From Verrucomicrobiota bacterium (GTDB lineage Bacteria > Verrucomicrobiota > Verrucomicrobiia > Limisphaerales > VHDF01), in assembly GCA_016871495.1 (NCBI GenBank), contig VHDF01000024.1, forward strand, positions 1-61,723: a stretch of DNA of 61,723 bases, read 5' to 3'. The position numbers were made by a program, and so were the translations under genes. This document shows, in pieces, positions 2,170 through 40,431 of this stretch; within the stretch, counting starts at the first letter, position 1; every line of letters starts with the position of its first letter. The notes under the pieces were generated by a model. The model saw only the letters and a program-made list of their open reading frames with translations, had not been told where the DNA came from and made no database searches.

Positions 2170-3330
2170 TCAATTCGATTGCCTTTGGCAAGCCGCTTGA
2201 TGGGCGCGAAAACCGGCCCGGGTCAGGGCGGTCATGCGCCAATCGGGTCCGAGGCGCCGCCATTGCACCCGGTGGAGTGCGACGGCTTCCGAACGCCGGG
2301 TCGCCCCGTCGCCCGCGACGGCCCGGCGAGAGAGGTTTCCACCGAGAATGGCGGTGGCATAGTAAAAAGCCACGCGGTGGGCCAGCCCCGGCAGCAGGAA
2401 GGCGGCTTGGACTTCCCCTCCGCCTTCCACCAGGATTTGCATGATTTGCTGCGCGCCGGCGCGCTGGAGGAATCGATCCACATCCACGCGGCCCTCCTTT
2501 TCCGGCAGCACCCACACTTGCGCTCGTTTTTCGAGCCGCGCGATTCGCCGGGGATCCGCGGTCTCGCCCACGACGATGGTGGTGGAACCGGGAGTTCCGG
2601 GCACAAGAATCCGCGCCTCGAGAGGGATGCGGGCATGGGTATCCAAAATGAACCGGCGCCATGTTCGCCGCTTCCAGTCCGGACCTTTTCCGCGCAGGGA
2701 AAGTTCGGGGTCATCTCGTCTTACCGTTTCGACGCCGGCCACGAGAGCGTCGGAGGCCCATCGTAAACGCATGCCGTCCGCGCGGGCTGCGGCGGAGGTG
2801 ATCCACTTCGAGTCTCCTTCCCGAGTGGCGATTTTTCCATCGAGCGTCATGGCGGCCTTGACTACGACCCACGGTCGGCGGCGCGCGATGTGGTGGTTGA
2901 ATGCCTCATTGAGTTCGAGGCAGGGGAGCGTGAGAATTCCGGTTTGAACCTCGATTCCTTTCCGGGCCAGGAATCGAAGCCCGGCGCCGCGATGGGAGGG
3001 GTTGGGATCGATGGCGCCCACGATGACTCTCCGCACGCCCGAGTGGAGGATCGCCTCGACGCAGGGCGGGGTGCGTCCGTGCGTGGAGCAGGGCTCGAGT
3101 GTGACGTAGAGGTCGGCTCCGGAGACGGAGTGGCCTCGATCCTGAGCGTTTTGCAGGGCGGCGATCTCGGCGTGGGCTGTGCCCGCGCGGCGATGCCAGC
3201 CGCGTCCCAGGCAGCGTCCTTGGCGGACGAGCACGGCGCCCACGGCGGGATTGGGCGAGGTGCGGCCCAGGCCTTGGCGGGCGAGACTCAAGGCTTCGCG
3301 CATCCAGTATTCGTCGTTGGAGGCGGCCAC
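2170..3330 (-). CDS. ribD: Bifunctional diaminohydroxyphosphoribosylaminopyrimidine deaminase / 5-amino-6-(5-phosphoribosylamino)uracil reductase
   Basis: RibD carries out the second and third steps of riboflavin synthesis. The N-terminal deaminase domain shows the zinc motifs HAEIAAL and LEPCSTHGRTPPC. The C-terminal NADPH-dependent reductase shows RPWVVVKAAMTLDGKIA, DSKWITS and VEGGGEVQAAFL. The frame is open upstream into ftsY, so I place the start at a GTG (3330) giving VAASNDEYWMREALSLARQ; ATG 3303 is the alternative. The length of 386 aa is normal for the family. It lies 25 bases after ftsY and nine before ribE, so it is almost certainly cotranscribed with both. Confidence 0.93.
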   Translation of the reverse strand: MAASNDEYWMREALSLARQGLGRTSPNPAVGAVLVRQGRCLGRGWHRRAGTAHAEIAALQNAQDRGHSVSGADLYVTLEPCSTHGRTPPCVEAILHSGVRRVIVGAIDPNPSHRGAGLRFLARKGIEVQTGILTLPCLELNEAFNHHIARRRPWVVVKAAMTLDGKIATREGDSKWITSAAARADGMRLRWASDALVAGVETVRRDDPELSLRGKGPDWKRRTWRRFILDTHARIPLEARILVPGTPGSTTIVVGETADPRRIARLEKRAQVWVLPEKEGRVDVDRFLQRAGAQQIMQILVEGGGEVQAAFLLPGLAHRVAFYYATAILGGNLSRRAVAGDGATRRSEAVALHRVQWRRLGPDWRMTALTRAGFRAHQAACQRQSN

Positions 3331-19512: not shown

Positions 19513-21936
19513 TCAGCGACCCCTGGATGGATTCCGAAGCAGGTGGTCCTCGAGAAAACGCGTCATCGATGCATGGAGGTGCCGGGTGGTGTTCGCGCTT
19601 TCGGAGATGGAGTGCGAACGGTTTGGATAGGGGAGCAGCGTGAAATGTTTGTGATGCGCGATGAGTTCGTTCGCCAGGCGCTCGATGCCTTGATAATGGC
19701 AGTTGTCATCGCCGGTACCGTGGGCGAGCCAAAGCCGTCCACGCAGATCCTTGGCGAAATGAACCGCGGAACCCTCGCGGTAGCCTTCGGCATTCGCGGC
19801 AGGCAATCCCATATACCGTTCCTGATAAATCGTGTCATAGAGGCGCATGTCCGGCACGGGCGCGACCGCCAGTCCGACCTGATAGAGTTCCGGATACTTG
19901 AAGATCGCGTTCAGCGTCATGCTTCCTCCGCCGCTCCACCCCCAGATGCCCACGCGCTGACGATCCACGAATTTCCACCGCTGAAGCAACGCCCGGGCGG
20001 CCTCCGCCTGCTCTTGCGGCGGCAGGATGCCCAGCTTCAGGTGGGGCGCCCGCCTCCACTCGCGTCCCCGAGGCGACGGGGTGCCCCGATTGTCCACACT
20101 GGCCACGATGCAACCTTGTTGGGCAAGCATCATATGCCAGAGTCCGCGGGATCCCTGCCACGTATCGCGCACGGTCTGGCCGTGAGGTTCGCCATAGACG
20201 TAAAAAAGCAACGGATGCCGTCCCGACCCCAGGCGTCCGGGCGGACGGATGCTCCAGGCATCCAGTTCAACCCCCGAGGCGATGGGCACCCGGTGGAATT
20301 GAACGTCAGGCCGTTTCAACGCGGCGAGGTGTCCACGCATTTTGTCGTTGGTGGCCAGGGTGCGAACCCTTTCATGACTCGTCAGGCGAATCAGTTCCAC
20401 GCGTGGAGGCGACACAAAACTCGAGTGCGTGTGCAATGCCCAGCGCGCGTCGGGCGAAATGGAATAAGTGTTCCAGCCCTGGAAATGTGGAGGCGTGACT
20501 CGTTCGGGCGGTCCGCCGGCGAGGGGGGATCGGTAGAGATAGCGCCGCGTGGCTTCCTCGGGCGACGCCGCGTAGTACAACCAGCCCTGAGCTTCATCGA
20601 TGGCTTCGACCTGCATCACATCGAAACTGCCCCGCGTGACGGGATGCTCGAGGCCTCGCTTGGTGGAAGCCACGTAAGCCCGACGCCAGCCGTCCCGCTC
20701 GCTCAACCAAAGAAGCTGGGCGCCCTTTTGGAGGCAGCGGACCGGATTGTCGTTTTCCAGCCAGGCGGGATCCGATTCCACCAGGATTTCATGGCATGCT
20801 CCTGTGGCTGCATCCGCGGTGAAAACACGATTGGTGTTTTGCGCGCGATTGAACTGCTGGACGAGCAGGCGGGAGGTTTCAGGAATCCACTCCAGGTGCG
20901 CGGGATAATGTTGTCGCGGATCGCCTGGCAGGTCGAGCCAGGTGATGGCGCCTCCGCCGACGGCGACGACTCCGAGGCGCACCGAGGCATTTTGTTCGCC
21001 CGCCTTCGGATACGGGATGGGCGTCAGCTTGGGATAGTTTTCATCGGTGTTGTTGATGAGTTGGAACACGGGCACGCCCGAGGTGTCGAACTGCCAGAAC
21101 GCGAGATGTTTTCCATCCGGGCTCCAGCGGAAAGCGTCGCGCACGTCGAGTTCTTCCTCATAAACCCAATCCGACGTGCCGTGGATCAGATGATTCGTGC
21201 CCGAGGTTACCTTGGTGATGGCGAGCGACTGCAGGTCTTGCATATGGAGGTTTGCCTCCTGCACGTAGGCGACACGAGTGGCGTCGGGTGAGAACTTGGC
21301 GAACATCAGGGTTCCCTCGGGCGCCTCGCCGCCGAGTTTCTTCAATTCCCGAGTCTTCAAGTCGAGATGCCAGTAGTTGCCCCTCGTGTTTCGCCGCCAA
21401 ACTCGATGCGTGTCGGTGAACAGCAGCAACTGGGATTCATCCTCGGAAAATTCGAACGAAGCGGGATCGAGCGGCTTTTCTGCTCCCGGCGGCGTGAGGC
21501 TTGCCGCATCAACCAACGTTAGCATGGCACCGCTTTCGATCTCGATTCGAACCAGGTCCTTTCCTTTTACTCCCCCGCCCGCCGGTCGCAAATGAAAGTA
21601 GTGACTGCCTTTCTTGCTCCAGGTGGTGAAGGGAACGGACTCCGGCGTGAAATCGCCCGACTTGAAAATGCGGTCCAGCGTGAGCTGGGATGGCTTGGCT
21701 GGACCGGGACGCGTTTCGGAAAAGTCGCCGGCCGCGCCCGTGAGTGAAGGCGGGTTGGCCAGGGTCGCAGTCAAGGCCCCACTTTCAAGGAGAAGAACCG
21801 CCAGCATGCGGAAGAATACTCTCTGTACGCTGCGAGAAGACCGCGCGACAGTGGATTGCCGCTGCCATGGAGTGGAGGTGAAAGGGTTCACGTTGAATTC
21901 CGAGGTCATGTTGAGGAGGGCTTCATTGCGGTTCAT
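19513..21936 (-). CDS. Exported S9 family (dipeptidyl-peptidase IV-like) serine peptidase
   Basis: The protein combines a beta-propeller of the DPP-IV N-terminal type (~90-560; YEEELDVRDAFRWSPDGKHL is characteristic) with an alpha/beta hydrolase domain (~580-800). The triad is intact: Ser668 in GIWGWSGGGSM, Asp743 in HGTGDDNCHYQ, His775 in NRSHS. The Glu pair of VYEEELDVRD that binds the substrate N-terminus is present, supporting dipeptidyl peptidase activity. The ATG overlaps the selB stop (ATGA), but ~40 residues precede the hydrophobic leader (MLAVLLLESGALTATLA), so a start at 21807 is possible. It is likely periplasmic. Confidence 0.88.
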   Translation of the reverse strand: MNRNEALLNMTSEFNVNPFTSTPWQRQSTVARSSRSVQRVFFRMLAVLLLESGALTATLANPPSLTGAAGDFSETRPGPAKPSQLTLDRIFKSGDFTPESVPFTTWSKKGSHYFHLRPAGGGVKGKDLVRIEIESGAMLTLVDAASLTPPGAEKPLDPASFEFSEDESQLLLFTDTHRVWRRNTRGNYWHLDLKTRELKKLGGEAPEGTLMFAKFSPDATRVAYVQEANLHMQDLQSLAITKVTSGTNHLIHGTSDWVYEEELDVRDAFRWSPDGKHLAFWQFDTSGVPVFQLINNTDENYPKLTPIPYPKAGEQNASVRLGVVAVGGGAITWLDLPGDPRQHYPAHLEWIPETSRLLVQQFNRAQNTNRVFTADAATGACHEILVESDPAWLENDNPVRCLQKGAQLLWLSERDGWRRAYVASTKRGLEHPVTRGSFDVMQVEAIDEAQGWLYYAASPEEATRRYLYRSPLAGGPPERVTPPHFQGWNTYSISPDARWALHTHSSFVSPPRVELIRLTSHERVRTLATNDKMRGHLAALKRPDVQFHRVPIASGVELDAWSIRPPGRLGSGRHPLLFYVYGEPHGQTVRDTWQGSRGLWHMMLAQQGCIVASVDNRGTPSPRGREWRRAPHLKLGILPPQEQAEAARALLQRWKFVDRQRVGIWGWSGGGSMTLNAIFKYPELYQVGLAVAPVPDMRLYDTIYQERYMGLPAANAEGYREGSAVHFAKDLRGRLWLAHGTGDDNCHYQGIERLANELIAHHKHFTLLPYPNRSHSISESANTTRHLHASMTRFLEDHLLRNPSRGR

Positions 21937-23897
21937 GTCGATTTGGGACCGAGGCAGCGCACATCGGCTTGGCGGCGGGTGACACCTTCCTTGTCCAACC
22001 GCTCAAGCAGAGGGATCACGACCCGCCGGCTTGAGGCAAGCAATTGCCGCAACTCGCTCGTGGTCGCGGAGGCATTGGCGCGAAGATGCTCCACAATCCT
22101 GGTTTTTGCCGACTGCCACGCGGTTTGGAGCAGAATCACATCAGGGCCCAGTTCCACCGCCTCTGAAGTATGCACCAGATATTTCAAGGCTTGGAGGGAG
22201 GCTGGATCCGGAGCGAGCTCTTTGCGCGAGGGTGGGTCGAATGGACGTTCTCCCAGCAGTTTACGGATGCGAAGACCCGCCGCCTCCAATGCCATCGGCA
22301 GGGCCGGACGATGGCTCTGGTGGCGCAAATGGGACCCGGTCCGAACATAATCCAACCGGGTCATGGCCTGGACCAAATCCTCGAACACGCTGGGGTCAGG
22401 CAGATTCGGCGCGAGGGCAGATTGCAGTTCGGCCACACTCAGTCCGGGCGAATCAGGTCTGGTTTGGTGGTGAGAGCGAACTTGTTCTCCAGCGCGACTC
22501 AACAACTGCCTCCAAGGTTCGGCGTCGATGAGTCCCGCCGAGATGGGCACCGCCCAACCGTCGGCCACTGCTTTGGCAATGGATTGCGTGATTTCATCCG
22601 GCGTGAAAGGGAGAGTGGCAACGAGCGCGCTTCGGCTTTTCAGAACCCTGGAGTGGAGTAGCGCGCGCAGACTTGCCTCGGCGTGGCCCAAGGCTTCCCG
22701 CATCTGCCGCAGGGATCCCTGCCTGGCCTCTGTCGAAAACCCGCGAATGCCTGGAGCGGCGTCGAGCACGATTCCGCCTCCCAGGGTGTGACGTTCGCTC
22801 CAATCGCGGATCACAAAACGATCTCCCCAAACGGCGTGCGCTCGTTCGCGCAGCCGGATTCGAGCCAGGCGATTTCCACCGGGAAGCAACGGGCCCTTTC
22901 CTCCGAGCACGATTCGCCCCGGAAACGATCGGGTGCCCAGATGCATCCGGACCAACGCCCCCGACTTGAGCGGGCGGCGGGCTCCCGGAGGGCCGTTTTC
23001 CAAACGCACGGACCTCGATAATTCCACTTCGAGGAGATTGGAGGATGCGCCCGAGTCTTCCCAGGTCAACACGTGACCTCTGGCCGCGTCGGGACCGCTC
23101 GTCGCCGATTTCGAAGGGCCCTCCACGGCGTTGATCTGGAGGGCTGCCCGCATGCCGGGGCGTGCGCAATCGATGTCGCGATGAGCGGATTGAACGGATC
23201 GCACTTTGAACCGCGTGCCCAAAGGCTGGCTGATCAGCGATTGACCCCGGCGAATCTCGCCGCCTTGCAATGTGCCAGTGACGACCAGACCCGCCCCTCG
23301 CACCAAAAAAGCCCGGTCGATCGGCAACCGAGGCTTGCCAAGATCGCGGGGGGGCTTCGAACGCCCCAAGGCCATGGCCAATGCTCCTCGCAAGTCGCCC
23401 AGGCCGCGCCCTTGTGGTGCCGAAACCGGAATGATCTCCGCCTTTTCGAGAAACGTGCCGGTGAGTGTTTCGCGGAGGCTGGCGATGGCCCCTGCTGTTC
23501 CCTCGCCCAGCAAATCCGCTTTGCTCAAGGCCACCACGCCGTCCGTGGCTCCGAGGTACTCAAGGATCTGCAAATGTTCCTCCGTTTGGGGCATCCATCC
23601 ATCGTCGGCGGCGACGACCAGGAGAGCGGCCTGAATCGTGCTGACACCCGCCACCATGTTTTTCACGAAATCCTCGTGGCCTGGCACATCCACGAACCCC
23701 ACTTCCCATCGTGCGATGGAATCTTCGATCACAGCATGGGCAAATCCGAGTTCGATCGTGATGCCGCGCGCCTTTTCCTCCGGCAGCCGGTCCGGGTCCG
23801 TGCCCGTGAGCGCTTTGACGATCGAACTCTTGCCGTGATCAACGTGACCGGCCGTGGCGACGATCGCTGGTCGTGTGGGAAGCGGAGTCGAATTCAT
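21933..23897 (-). CDS. selB: Selenocysteine-specific translation elongation factor SelB
   Basis: SelB is the GTPase that delivers Sec-tRNA to UGA codons flagged by a SECIS hairpin. N-terminal EF-Tu-like motifs are clear: [19 protein letters not shown] (G1), [14 protein letters not shown] (G2), [17 protein letters not shown] (G3) and ALSKADLL (G4). Domains II/III follow ([20 protein letters not shown]), and the last ~200 residues form the winged-helix array that binds SECIS RNA, ending in [20 protein letters not shown]. At 654 aa it is full length. It overlaps selA upstream and the S9 peptidase downstream by four bases each. Neither selC nor selD is in the window. Confidence 0.95.
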
Positions 23898-25276
23898 GCC
23901 GTCGTGAGGACCGACTTCAGGATCGTGAGCAGTTGTTCATCTTGCGCGGGGAAGATGGTGCGGAGATCCAGCCACAAGGCATTTCCAGCCAGGAATCCGA
24001 TGACAGGCGGATCGCTGTGTCGCAGCCGTTGGGAGAGTGTCTGGGCACTGAACGCGGACGGACGCAGCTTCAGCGCGAGTGAAGTGATCCTTGAACGAGG
24101 CATGCTGCCACCGCCGACCTGGCCTGAGCATTCGGAGATCGAAGCTTCGTTGTCGTGGTGTGGCAGCCCGGCGAGCAAGCGTTCGCCGCGCGCCCTCAAG
24201 TCCTCCAGGGACACGTCGAGCATTTCGATGAGCGGGAGGATGGGTGGGGCAGGTTGGGAGGATTTCTCCCTCGCGTACAGATGCAGATCGAGCGTTTCCT
24301 GCAAGGCGGCGAGGACCAGTTTATCGCAGCGAAAAGCACGGTAAAGGGGGTCCTTCTTCATGGCGGCAATGGCGCGGCGCTTGCCGGCCAGGAGTCCCGC
24401 TTGCGGACCTCCAAAAAGCTTGTCGCCGCTGAAGCAGACCACATCCACCCCGGCTGCGATCGATTCGGAGGGGCGGGGTTCATGTTCGCCGAGACCGTGA
24501 TGTTCGGTGCGCATCATGGCGCCGCTCCCGAGATCCTCGACCAACGGAACCTTGCGTTTCTTCGCCAGCGCGCTCAACTCCGTGAGCGTGGGGGACTCCA
24601 CAAAGCCTTCCATGAAGAAATTGCTGCGATGAACTTTGAGGATCAACGCGGTGCGAGACGAGATCGCGCGGCTGAAATCGCCTGCTGTCGTGCGATTGGT
24701 TGTGCCCACGTCCCGCAGTGTGGCCCCCGCGCTCTCCAGGATTTCAGGAATGCGGAAGCCGCCGCCGATTTGGATGGCCTCGCCCCGTGACACCAACACT
24801 TCGCGCCGTTCGCCCTGGATCCAGGGCCGGACCGCAAGGACGAGCGCGGCGGCGCCGTTGTTGACCGCGGTGGCCGCTTCGGCGTCACAGGCGAGGGCAA
24901 GGTGTGTTTCCAAGTAGGAAGCCCGGTTTCCCCGCCCCCCGGTTTCGAGGTCGAGTTCGAGAGTGTTGTAGTGGCGGGCGACCGTGGCAACCCGTTCGGC
25001 GGCGCTTTCGGCCAGAGGGGCTCGTCCGAGGTTCGTGTGAATCAGGATGCCGGTTCCGTTGATGACCGGTCGAAGGCGCCGCGCCCGATGCTGGCGCAAC
25101 GCTTCGCGCACCTGGTTCAGAATGGAGGCCGCATCAGGAATGACCTTTTGACGGCGGCTCTCCGCGAGGATTCCGCGGATGAAGCGAGTGACCACCGCCG
25201 CGGGCAAGTCCTGGCTGCCGAGTTGGCTCTTCAACTTGTCCACGGAGGGCAGATCGCGCAATGGACGGGAATTCAT
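23894..25276 (-). CDS. selA: L-seryl-tRNA(Sec) selenium transferase SelA
   Basis: SelA is the PLP enzyme that converts seryl-tRNA(Sec) to selenocysteinyl-tRNA(Sec) using selenophosphate. The family motifs are intact: RPVINGTGILIHTNLGRAPL, RASYLETHLALA, DVGTTNRTTAGDF, VEDLGSGAM and the PLP lysine in CFSGDKLFGGPQAGLLAGK. The 460-aa length is standard for bacterial SelA. It is the first gene of selA-selB-S9. Its presence with SelB shows that this organism decodes UGA as selenocysteine, which matters for the UGA inside the nearby kinase gene at 28956-28958. Confidence 0.95.
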   Translation of the reverse strand: MNSRPLRDLPSVDKLKSQLGSQDLPAAVVTRFIRGILAESRRQKVIPDAASILNQVREALRQHRARRLRPVINGTGILIHTNLGRAPLAESAAERVATVARHYNTLELDLETGGRGNRASYLETHLALACDAEAATAVNNGAAALVLAVRPWIQGERREVLVSRGEAIQIGGGFRIPEILESAGATLRDVGTTNRTTAGDFSRAISSRTALILKVHRSNFFMEGFVESPTLTELSALAKKRKVPLVEDLGSGAMMRTEHHGLGEHEPRPSESIAAGVDVVCFSGDKLFGGPQAGLLAGKRRAIAAMKKDPLYRAFRCDKLVLAALQETLDLHLYAREKSSQPAPPILPLIEMLDVSLEDLRARGERLLAGLPHHDNEASISECSGQVGGGSMPRSRITSLALKLRPSAFSAQTLSQRLRHSDPPVIGFLAGNALWLDLRTIFPAQDEQLLTILKSVLTTA

Positions 25277-25578: not shown

Positions 25579-26319
25579 TTACCACCAGGTGTAATTCGAG
25601 TCCGGAGGCGGTGACTGCTGCCAATTGACGTATTCCTTGGGGAAAATGTAGGCGACGACGTGGCCGTCGCCGAACAGCATGTTGTAAAAGCGTTTGCCCT
25701 TGTAATTGTGCCAGATGCTTTTCTTGTCGTTGACGTCGCGAGAACCATTCCAATGCCAGTCCCCGGCCAGTATCTTGTTCGCGGGGCTGACGGCAAGTTC
25801 GGACCCTTTCAACGAGCGCGACTCCGGGGTTCCCTTGGCTGCGCGGGAATCGCCCGTAACCCGTTTGACCCGGTACCACTGCACACCCCACATCGTCATG
25901 TAGCTGTTGCCCCAGCCGTCCCAGCAAGTCTTGGCTTGCGGCCAGTAGGAATCGCCTTTGTCCGCCGGACAATGAAACGCTTCGGCGGCCGGCACGTAAA
26001 CGTTTAGAGGACGATTCGTTTCGGGTGAGGAACGGATGTCGGCGTAGCGCCAGGGCCAGGGCCCCTGGTTGCCTTGAATCCTTCCGCCGAGTGATGCCCA
26101 GTCGGCATGGACCGGAAAGGTGTCCTCGTGATCGTCGGCATACATCTGAAAGCCGAGTCCGATTTGCCTCACGTTATTGGCGCACTTGGTTTGTTGGGCT
26201 TTGGCTTTGGACCGGCTGAGCGCGGGGAGCAGCATGCCGGCCAGCACGGCAATGATGGCGATCACGACCAGGAGCTCGATCAAGGTGAAGCCCGCGCGCC
26301 TTGTCGGGGGGGAATGCAT
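25579..26319 (-). CDS. Type II secretion/pilin-like prepilin with H-X9-DG-type C-terminus
   Basis: The N-terminus [19 protein letters not shown] is a prepilin leader with cleavage expected between Gly10 and Phe11, Glu at position +5 and a hydrophobic helix continuing through [18 protein letters not shown]. The C-terminal part contains [19 protein letters not shown], the DGHV box of the prepilin-type processing-associated H-X9-DG domain found in large paralogous families in Verrucomicrobia, Planctomycetes and Lentisphaerae. At 246 aa it is typical. Such proteins are thought to be pseudopilins or surface proteins, not main pilins. It stands alone, flanked by a selA gap and a repeat-rich region. 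Confidence 0.88.
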
Positions 26320-26498: not shown

Positions 26499-26566
26499 GA
26501 GGGACTCGGCGGGGCGGGATTGAGCGACGCTGAAGCGCCGTGAACGGCGCGGTCCGGCGGAGGAGC
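26499..26566 (+). repeat. REP-like unit, copy 1 (GAGGGACTCGGCG ... hairpin)
   Basis: The unit starts GAGGGACTCGGCG, continues through GCGGGATTG, and contains a palindrome GAAGCGCCGTGAACGGCGC with arms GCGCCGT/ACGGCGC. It is repeated in direct orientation at 26743-26810. The hairpin core also occurs at 40171-40188 (inverted) and, as a compensated variant, at 40310-40328. Confidence 0.6.
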
Positions 26567-26742: not shown

Positions 26743-26810
26743 GAGGGACTCGGCGCGTGCGGATTGGCGGGGGCGGAAGCGCCGTGAACGGCGCGGTCCG
26801 GGGGCGGAGC
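26743..26810 (+). repeat. REP-like unit, copy 2
   Basis: This is the second direct copy of the unit at 26499-26566, with most differences clustered in the spacer between GACTCGGCG and the GAAGCGCCGTGAACGGCGC hairpin. The hairpin itself is identical in both copies, indicating that the stem is the conserved part. Confidence 0.6.
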
Positions 26811-26921: not shown

Positions 26922-29042
26922 TTACTCGACCGTGATGGCCACCAGAAACGGAGCTGCGACTCTCATGGCGCTGACGAAATCGATTGAAGCAATTTCCACC
27001 CCGGGACGCGGGTTTTCGTAGGTTCGCTTCCAAAGGCTGAGACGATGGCTGACGGACATTCCTACGGGCGATTTGCTTTTCCAGGCGCGCGTCGCGTGTT
27101 TCAACCGGTCCGGTTCGGACTTGGTAAACCACCATTCATCGAGATCCTCGCCAATCACCATGGGCAACTCAGCCTGCTGCCCGTCGGCAAAATGCAACAC
27201 GTAACGGCCGACGGATGTGCGTTTCGATTTCTCACCTCCGGCGAATTGCGCCGCGTGCAGCATGTGCAACCGGCGGCAGCCCTGACGAATCGGGATGCCG
27301 GTCACGCTCGGAGGGTAGCTTCGGACATAGTACGAATGGGCGCTGTTCAACTGAATCAATCCGCGCAAATCGAACGTCACGCCTTCGATGGTTTGAGTTC
27401 CCATGGGCAGTTCCGAAAAATCCACGTTGGAAAAGTCATGGCCGCCTCTCTTCAATAATTGGTTGTAGAAAGGTTCGAGATCGATCTGCCTCGCGGTGGC
27501 GGCGTCATCGCGACGGGGAACCGACAGGCGTGGGTCCAATCGTGTCCATTCCGCGGGCAACCTTTCCATGGGCTCGAGGTTCCAGAGTTTTCCATAGCCG
27601 CCCCCGCCGACGATCGCACTTCCGTTCGGCAAGAAAGCGAAGCCGTTGATGTAACGTTCCCCCCATTGGGGGACAAGGGTGGGGGTGACGGGCTCGCCTG
27701 TCTCCGCGTCCCGAACGGAAAGGCCCTCCGATCCCGCCGCGGCGATGAAACGACCGTCAAGACTGTAGCCAGTGCGGGGGTTGCGTCCACCGGAAGGGGT
27801 TGCGTGTAAGAGGGTGCCGCTGGCCACGTCCCATACTCGGACGAAACCGTCCATCCAACCTGTCACCATGCGGGTTCCGTCGGGGCTGAATCCGCTGAAA
27901 CTAACCTCTCCGAAGCGCGGGAACCGATGGAGCAATCGTCCGTCTTCGAGGTCCCACAGAGTGAGGTCGCCGGTTTTCCAACAGGCGGCCATGAGTTTCT
28001 TGCCATCCGGTGAGATGGCTCCATGCCCGCCGGGACCGTCGAGTTGAAGCGGATGGTCCTGCGGCTCCATCTTTTCCGGGTCCCATCGCTTGGCGCTACC
28101 ATCGGCGGCCAGCGTGACCACGAATCTGGCTTTGGGGTGGCTGAGGACAAAATTGACGGGACCGTTGTGAGCGTTGGTCCATGTCCGCAACAGCCGGCCC
28201 TCGGGCACGGACCACACCCGGACGACGCCATGGTCATCGCCCGAAAAAACTCGTTCTCCGTTGGGGGAAAACGCGCCGTAAAGCGTGTTTTCCTCTTGAA
28301 CCAAAGGATGTTCGAGGAAGGGTGTCACTGGTTTGGCGGTGGCGATTTCATAGACGCGCGCCAGGCCGTTGCGTCCCATGGCGAGCACGCGATTGCCCGT
28401 GGGATCGACTTGGATGCGGTAAAGGCCGGCGCGGCTGGACGGATGCAGAGGAAAATCGTCCATCGCCGCTTCGCCCGTTGACGCGTCGTAGATGGCCAGT
28501 TGGCCGTCGCCCCCGCCAATGTCGAGAAGGATGTTGGAGGGCTTGATGTCGCGGTGGATGACGCCGTGTTGATGGGCGTAAGCGACGGCATCGGCGAGGG
28601 TGCGGCCTTCGACGAACTCCATGCTGAAGTAGTGTTGACCTTCGAACTCGCCCACATCGTGAATGGTGACAATGGCAGGGTGGCGCAGCGACGCGGCGGC
28701 GGCGGCTTCACGCTTAAACCGTTCGATGGCGCTTTCGCTGGCGAATTGGCCTAACAGCAGCATTTTGACCGCGACCGTTCGACGCAGGCTGAGTTGCTGG
28801 GCGCGCCAGACCACGCCCATGCCCCCATGGGCGATTTCCTCGATCAATTCGTAATCGCCAAAGATCCTTCCTTTCGATGCAACACTTTGGTCTTCAGGCT
28901 TTTCAGTATTTGTTTTGGATGGATCATCATCTTCCGAAAGCAAGCCAGCGAGGGCTCAACGAGGACAGCGAACGGCCGAGGAGATGCGGTCGAAGGAGGC
29001 ACCGCATTGAGGGCAGATTCCTTTGGACGATGGAGCACTCAT
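26922..29042 (-). pseudogene. WD40-repeat serine/threonine kinase, decayed: in-frame TGA and missing kinase C-lobe
   Basis: Reading from ATG 29042 gives MSAPSSKGICPQCGASFD..., a zinc ribbon whose fourth Cys position (CPR-x) is a TGA at 28956-28958. The frame then stays open for 673 codons from TTG 28943. The kinase N-lobe is present (GGMGVVWRA, VAVK, αC Glu, SMEFVEG), but helices αD/αE are shortened. Right after HRDIKPSNILLD the sequence jumps into WD40-like repeats, so the DFG motif, activation loop, APE and whole C-lobe are absent. About seven propeller repeats and an intact C-terminal domain (ending APFLVAITVE) follow. It cannot be an active kinase. It lies 53 bases after the frameshifted sigma gene, its usual partner. 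Selenocysteine at the TGA is a less likely alternative. Confidence 0.75.
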
Positions 29043-29095: not shown

Positions 29096-29834
29096 CTAAA
29101 ATTTTTGCATCAACTGGAGAACCTCTTCATCGACTTGGGACGGATTCTCGACCGTTTGGGCAATTTCGGACCGGAGAATTTCGCGAAATCGCCGGCGCAG
29201 GCGATGGGTGGTGGACTTGATGCCGACGACGATGACGTTCATGGTCCGGGCGATGTCGGTGTAGGGGATGCTGGTCGGGTCGCCCCACAGGTGCGGTTCG
29301 AGCGCGTCGAACAATTCGGTCCGGCCCGAAATCAGGAATTCGGCGCGCAGCCGGTGTAAGACGACTTCGATGGAGGCGGGAAGCCCAGCGCCGTTCGTAG
29401 AGTTTGTCGGGAGGTTCCTCGGAGGCGGGAATTTCGAACAACCTTTCTTCCTCGGACTGTTGTGCTTCGAGGGAGATGATTTCCTTGCCGCCCCCGCGCT
29501 TCGCCGCCTGCCGGAACTCGTGTTCGTTGCGCAGAAAATTCTGCATGGCACCGAGCAGAAACGTGCGAAATCGTCCCCGGGCCGGATCCGCCTGCGCGAT
29601 GCGATTGTTCTCCAGCAACCGTTGGAAGAAGGATTGAGTGAGGTCACGCGCGTCCTCGGGGCTCCGACCGCACCGACGGACGTAGGCGTAGAGGGGGGGG
29701 CAATAGGAAGTGCAAAGACGTTCGAGCGCGGCCATGGCGGTGGAAGAGCCATCCAATCCGACCGAAAGAATCACGCTCCAATGGGTTGTTGAGAAAACCC
29801 CGGGCAATGTGTCCCTGGCCGCAGGGGGTGCCAT
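29096..29834 (-). pseudogene. ECF-type RNA polymerase sigma factor, frameshifted
   Basis: The first frame, from ATG 29834, encodes sigma region 2 features (FSTTHWSVILSVGLDG, YCPPLYAYVRRCGRSPEDAR, DLTQSFFQRLLENN, RGRFRTFLLGAMQNFL) up to LYERRWA at about base 29385. Similarity then continues in another frame: PASIEVVLHRLRAEF, LFDALEPHLWGD, KSTTHRLRRRFREILR and IAQTVENPSQVDEEV to a stop at 29096. A single-base indel around 29380 separates them. Region 4 also looks degraded (MNVIVVGIKSTTHRL where a regular helix-turn-helix is expected). This family of sigma factors is typically paired with the WD40 kinase downstream, which is also broken here. A sequencing error is possible for the frameshift but would not explain the kinase damage. 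Confidence 0.75.
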
Positions 29835-39997: not shown

Positions 39998-40431
39998 GGC
40001 GGATAAGCTGTGGTTGGCTCCGATATGAGGCCAGAACGGGAGTTCGGCAGCAAGGCGTTTTCCAGCGTTAGAACTCCGCCGGGCCGGGGTGCGGAAGGGT
40101 GAGTAACTTCAGCATCCAGTGAGTGGGGAGGGAGCCAGAAACATCCGGTGCATCCGCAAGTTTTCGGGGCGCGCCGTTCACGGCGCTTCCGCTCGCGCCA
40201 ACCTGCCGCGGCGATCTCCTCCCGCTTCATGGCCCGCTCTTGGTGAATGCCTTCGCCCTGGCGGCACCCTTGCCCGTTGAAGCTCCATGCCCCTTTGAAG
40301 ACACGCCTTGAAGCGGCGTGAACGCCGCGCCCCGGCGATGCTGCGCGCATCAACGACCACCTGGGGATGCACTGAGAAACACCCGGAAGCGAGTGCAATG
40401 GTGTTGGAAGGGAACGACGCCTGTTTGAAAG
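39998..40431. other. Non-coding gap with REP hairpins
   Basis: The 434-base gap holds the hairpin GCGCCGTTCACGGCGCTT (40171-40188), shared in inverted orientation with the units at 26499 and 26743, and a compensated variant GAAGCGGCGTGAACGCCGC (40310-40328) in which both arms changed together. No gene is supported. The downstream end of the unknown Tat protein gene is at 40432. Confidence 0.5.

Follow-up and report, generated by a model that had tools for sequence, protein, structure and literature searches.

Is an in-frame TGA that falls exactly on a conserved cysteine codon, a few kilobases from genes for selenocysteine (Sec) insertion, read as an amino acid or as a stop? The question is raised by a kinase gene on the minus strand of the window, by which we mean the whole 61,723-nucleotide stretch of DNA that was analysed. 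We propose that the TGA is almost certainly a nonsense mutation in a decaying pair of genes, an ECF sigma factor and a WD40 Ser-Thr kinase. In this model a TGC or TGT codon for a zinc-ribbon Cys would have changed to TGA while the kinase half of the sigma-kinase pair was being lost, and translation from 29042 would end after a 28-residue peptide. The features concerned are collected in Table 1.

Table 1. Features of the kinase locus and the neighbouring Sec genes, in window coordinates.
Feature	Coordinates	Strand	Basis
selB, Sec-specific elongation factor, with SelB winged-helix domains	21933..23897	-	PF00009, PF09107, PF09106, PF25461
selA, L-seryl-tRNA(Sec) selenium transferase	23894..25276	-	Pfam PF03841, E=2e-118
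Remaining WD40-type Ser/Thr kinase ORF, 677 codons	26922..28955	-	Pfam Pkinase, profile matches, homologue alignment
Hairpin CTT-TCGG-AAG, not a valid SECIS	28931..28940	-	3 bp, no G in first two loop bases (criteria PMC13188914)
In-frame TGA at the fourth zinc-ribbon Cys position, almost certainly a nonsense codon	28956..28958	-	Sequence, homologue alignments
Kinase N-terminal remnant MSAPSSKGICPQCGASFDRISSAVRCPR, 3/4 ribbon Cys	28959..29042	-	Translation; weak zinc-ribbon Pfam matches with TGA read as Cys
ECF-type sigma factor, upstream of kinase, frameshifted	29096..29834	-	Two overlapping ORFs, 29127-29834 and 29096-29752

The kinase frame opens with the ATG at 29042 and runs through MSAPSSKGICPQCGASFDRISSAVRCPR to the TGA at 28958-28956, as read from the DNA and the translated ORF. 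When aligned with kinase homologues, whose N-termini in the same order take the form CPxCG...CPRCLL, the TGA takes the place of the last Cys of the CPxC...CPxC ribbon, as would be expected of a selenoprotein, and the ancestral codon at this site was presumably Cys. Downstream, 677 codons remain open until the stop ending at 26922. The earlier note had placed the TGA exactly at the fourth ribbon Cys and had CPRC completing the ribbon in related kinases, both of which the alignments confirm; its count of 673 open codons is correct when taken from the first TTG, at 28943.

UGA is probably translated as Sec in this organism, which makes the question a fair one. selA and selB lie ~3.7 kb and ~5 kb from the TGA, and the genome also has selD and selC, the tRNA-Sec gene, so that the machinery needed for a selenoprotein is in place. 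Furthermore, the gene for the alpha subunit of formate dehydrogenase, fdhA (G000:C113:6601-7383), carries an in-frame TGA in NCSRA*HSPTV, at the known Sec site of this enzyme, and by its sequence fdhA is likely a genuine selenoprotein of the genome. The suggestion that SelA and SelB are encoded about 4 kb away, and that Sec insertion is possible in principle, is therefore borne out.

Bacterial SECIS elements are described as hairpins with a loop of 3-9 nt that lies 16-37 nt past the UGA and has a G in its first two bases, on a stem of 4-16 bp with an MFE <= -7.5 kcal/mol (PMC13188914). Our scan applied a loop spacing of 13-37 nt, a loop length of 3-14 nt, the G rule and the energy, with fdhA as the positive control and 171 positions within the window kinase gene as further controls. 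A single hairpin is reachable past the window TGA, at -5.3 kcal/mol and with the loop ATGATC, and 90% of the 171 control positions give a stronger one; the required G is absent, and the scan found no hairpin past this TGA that satisfies the SECIS constraints. At fdhA the hairpin reaches -13.4 kcal/mol, has the loop GTCTGG at 19 nt and satisfies the tested rules. The energy rule alone discriminates poorly, with fdhA only within the best 16-19% of control positions, so the negative result at the window TGA rests on outright failure of the rules. Segments of 27-83 nt around the TGA fold no more stably than their dinucleotide shuffles (z-scores -0.7 to +1.3), and an Rfam search of the window returned no matches. 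The weak CTT-TCGG-AAG hairpin, pointed out earlier in place of a proper SECIS, does exist, its loop TCGG failing the G rule. Sec insertion at the window TGA was rejected on the rule scan, with its fdhA and 171 control positions, and on the comparison of folds with shuffles.

The kinase, judged from its sequence, would be dead through lesions besides the TGA. The ORF past the TGA matches the kinase N-lobe (Pfam Pkinase positions 1-88 of 263), and kinase profile matches extend over positions 1-89 and 107-133. Alignment against intact homologues of 1053-1198 aa shows that ~21 residues have been lost from the segment joining the hinge to helix E; the N-lobe and HRDIKPSNILLD are retained, WD40 sequence starts directly after HRDIKPSNILLD, and the DFG motif, activation segment, APE, C-lobe and transmembrane helix are missing. 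The WD40 repeats and the C-terminal domain are present and still match homologues. This homology to intact family members over the N- and C-terminal parts, together with inactivating lesions other than the TGA (the DFG-to-transmembrane loss and a frameshift in the sigma gene), is what is expected of a pseudogene. The sigma frameshift lies at about 29375, between the codons ending at ~29379 and starting at 29374, and an intact sigma paralogue of 241 aa is found in contig C139 of the same genome. Taken with the kinase deletions, the frameshift makes the TGA one among several lesions of the same pair, and these independent lesions in kinase and sigma partner support the preference of the earlier note, which saw a damaged kinase and took a nonsense mutation to be likelier than Sec.

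None of the ~22 stops expected in 677 codons of random sequence of this composition interrupts the frame, and the deletions preserve it, which implies either that decay is recent or that the rest of the gene is under some selection. The open frame past the TGA thus points to recent decay or perhaps to some remaining product made from an internal start. As the frame is otherwise open, we infer that the TGA mutation is relatively recent, and the kinase gene probably has no selected product.

The general background is a loss of the ribbon/WD40 kinase paralogue family in this genome. Seven of the eight loci examined are truncated, frameshifted or stop-containing (the window locus C24, C139, C3, C70, C16, C38 and C89), and the one intact locus, C10, keeps the full core. 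The C139 kinase is missing its core and has a TGA of its own in LADSS*EEAA, which is not at a Cys. Shortly past the hinge there is a stop in C3 and a frameshift in C70, while C16 is truncated, C38 is without its N-lobe and C89 is a fragment carrying an in-frame TGA.

Several further observations concern these loci. The breaks in six decaying kinases (C24 at window positions 28515-28598, C139, C3, C16, C70 and C38) cluster in one short stretch between the hinge (VEGRxLA) and helix E (AYAHQHG), a pattern that may be due to chance or to a deletion hot spot. Two of the broken kinase genes, C139 (L085:1508-1533) and C89 (G000:C89:7871-7896), contain a palindromic 26-mer, GGGACGACTTCCACGTCGTCCCTGAC, of which the genome has only three copies with one mismatch allowed. 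Just downstream of the window kinase, a repeat with the palindrome GCGCCGTGAACGGCGC occurs as two 68-nt copies that are 82% identical (26499-26566 and 26743-26810), with a third partial copy on the other strand at 40166-40187. In the window (25579-26319, minus strand; N_methyl PF07963 and DUF1559 PF07596), in C139 (L085 ~2500-3249) and in C3 (L089), prepilin-like genes come after the sigma-kinase locus.

A pattern search for CPxCG...CPx-TGA across 320 genomes of the order, covering ribbons of the form CPxCG...CPxC and not their variants, gave 28 matches, of which, by translation, only the window gene and one in genome G141 are kinases. The same pattern with TGA at Cys3, Cys2 or Cys1 gave 24, 11 and 13 matches in the 320 genomes and no kinase; this 2:0:0:0 split is too small to carry meaning, one of the two cases being the query itself. 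G141 encodes SelA, the kinase domain of its gene is intact, and the hairpin past its TGA satisfies the rules tested for spacing, G and energy, a result equalled or bettered at 19% of control positions. Its WD40 part is frameshifted and holds an extra TGA at a non-Cys codon, as deduced from the three frames. The downstream frameshift and second TGA mark G141 as a pseudogene, and it was rejected as independent support for Sec; chance could account for a single further independent TGA at Cys4. Among the 320 genomes the TGA was not found conserved in any relative with an otherwise intact gene, the frameshifted G141 being the one match, and the contig scan returned distant matches only, with none of the same family or genus among the genomes searched. 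Homologues otherwise carry Cys. The earlier note had held that Cys in homologues and the lack of a SECIS-like hairpin would together favour a plain nonsense mutation, and this is essentially what we find.

A single substitution in TGC or TGT can give no stop other than TGA, in agreement with the single base change from Cys proposed earlier, and the coincidence of a TGA at a Cys codon is for this reason only a mild one. There are 221 stop-creating single substitutions in the window ORF, 54 of them to TGA. Each of its five remaining Cys codons accounts for one of the 221, in every case a TGA, so that a new nonsense mutation would hit a Cys roughly 2-3% of the time; this is unremarkable in a scan covering many features. 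For the same reason nearby Sec genes and a TGA at Cys are insufficient to call a selenoprotein, and our result guards against such a false call.

How, then, do the other explanations compare? Were the UGA read by SelB and tRNA-Sec, the kinase would carry a CxxU zinc ribbon, which would extend selenoproteins to zinc-ribbon kinases. The Sec genes of the organism, its fdhA with TGA at the Sec site, the exact placement on one Cys of a CxxC pair and the same-site TGA beside an intact kinase domain in the SelA-encoding G141 all lean this way. FmdB, a zinc ribbon, belongs on the same side. It is counted, as UxxU, among predicted selenoproteins (PMC13188914). This explanation is nevertheless very improbable: no hairpin lies within the SECIS constraints, the catalytic core of the kinase is missing, the sigma partner is frameshifted and sister loci are decaying in the same genome, while the G141 gene is itself frameshifted downstream with another TGA at a non-Cys codon. 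Moreover the Cys is, by family resemblance, a structural metal ligand and no catalytic thiol. Slighter still is the chance that the fourth Cys in ribbon kinases of the order is now and then replaced by UGA/Sec, as in the window and G141, with Sec as a metal ligand in a signalling kinase and the window copy decaying later.

Two further possibilities are both quite unlikely. The downstream ORF may still yield a pseudokinase/WD40 protein from an internal start such as TTG 28943, the ribbon being dispensable, in keeping with 677 codons left open despite two in-frame deletions and with WD40 and C-terminal regions that match homologues; against it, no ribosome-binding-like sequence was seen by eye ahead of TTG 28943, the next in-frame ATG lies within the glycine loop, and the partner sigma factor is broken. 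Sequencing or assembly errors could account for the TGA, the sigma frameshift or both in a draft genome of 201 contigs, but large deletions at several independent loci are impossible as single-base errors. A nonsense mutation in a decaying pair remains the explanation that most reasonably fits our observations.

Like known bacterial selenoproteins, for example the formate dehydrogenase alpha subunit of its own genome, the window gene has an in-frame TGA at a homologue Cys and Sec machinery at hand; unlike them it has no SECIS-like hairpin and no redox active site, and the gene is otherwise broken. The closest known system is instead that of ECF sigma factor/WD40 Ser-Thr kinase pairs with an N-terminal zinc ribbon (PF07638/PF04542 with PF00069 and WD40). 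Although the window pair departs from these in the TGA at the fourth Cys, the absent kinase core and the frameshifted sigma gene, it shares with many members of the order the gene order, the CPxC...CPxC ribbon, the N-lobe, the WD40 repeats and the C-terminal domain.
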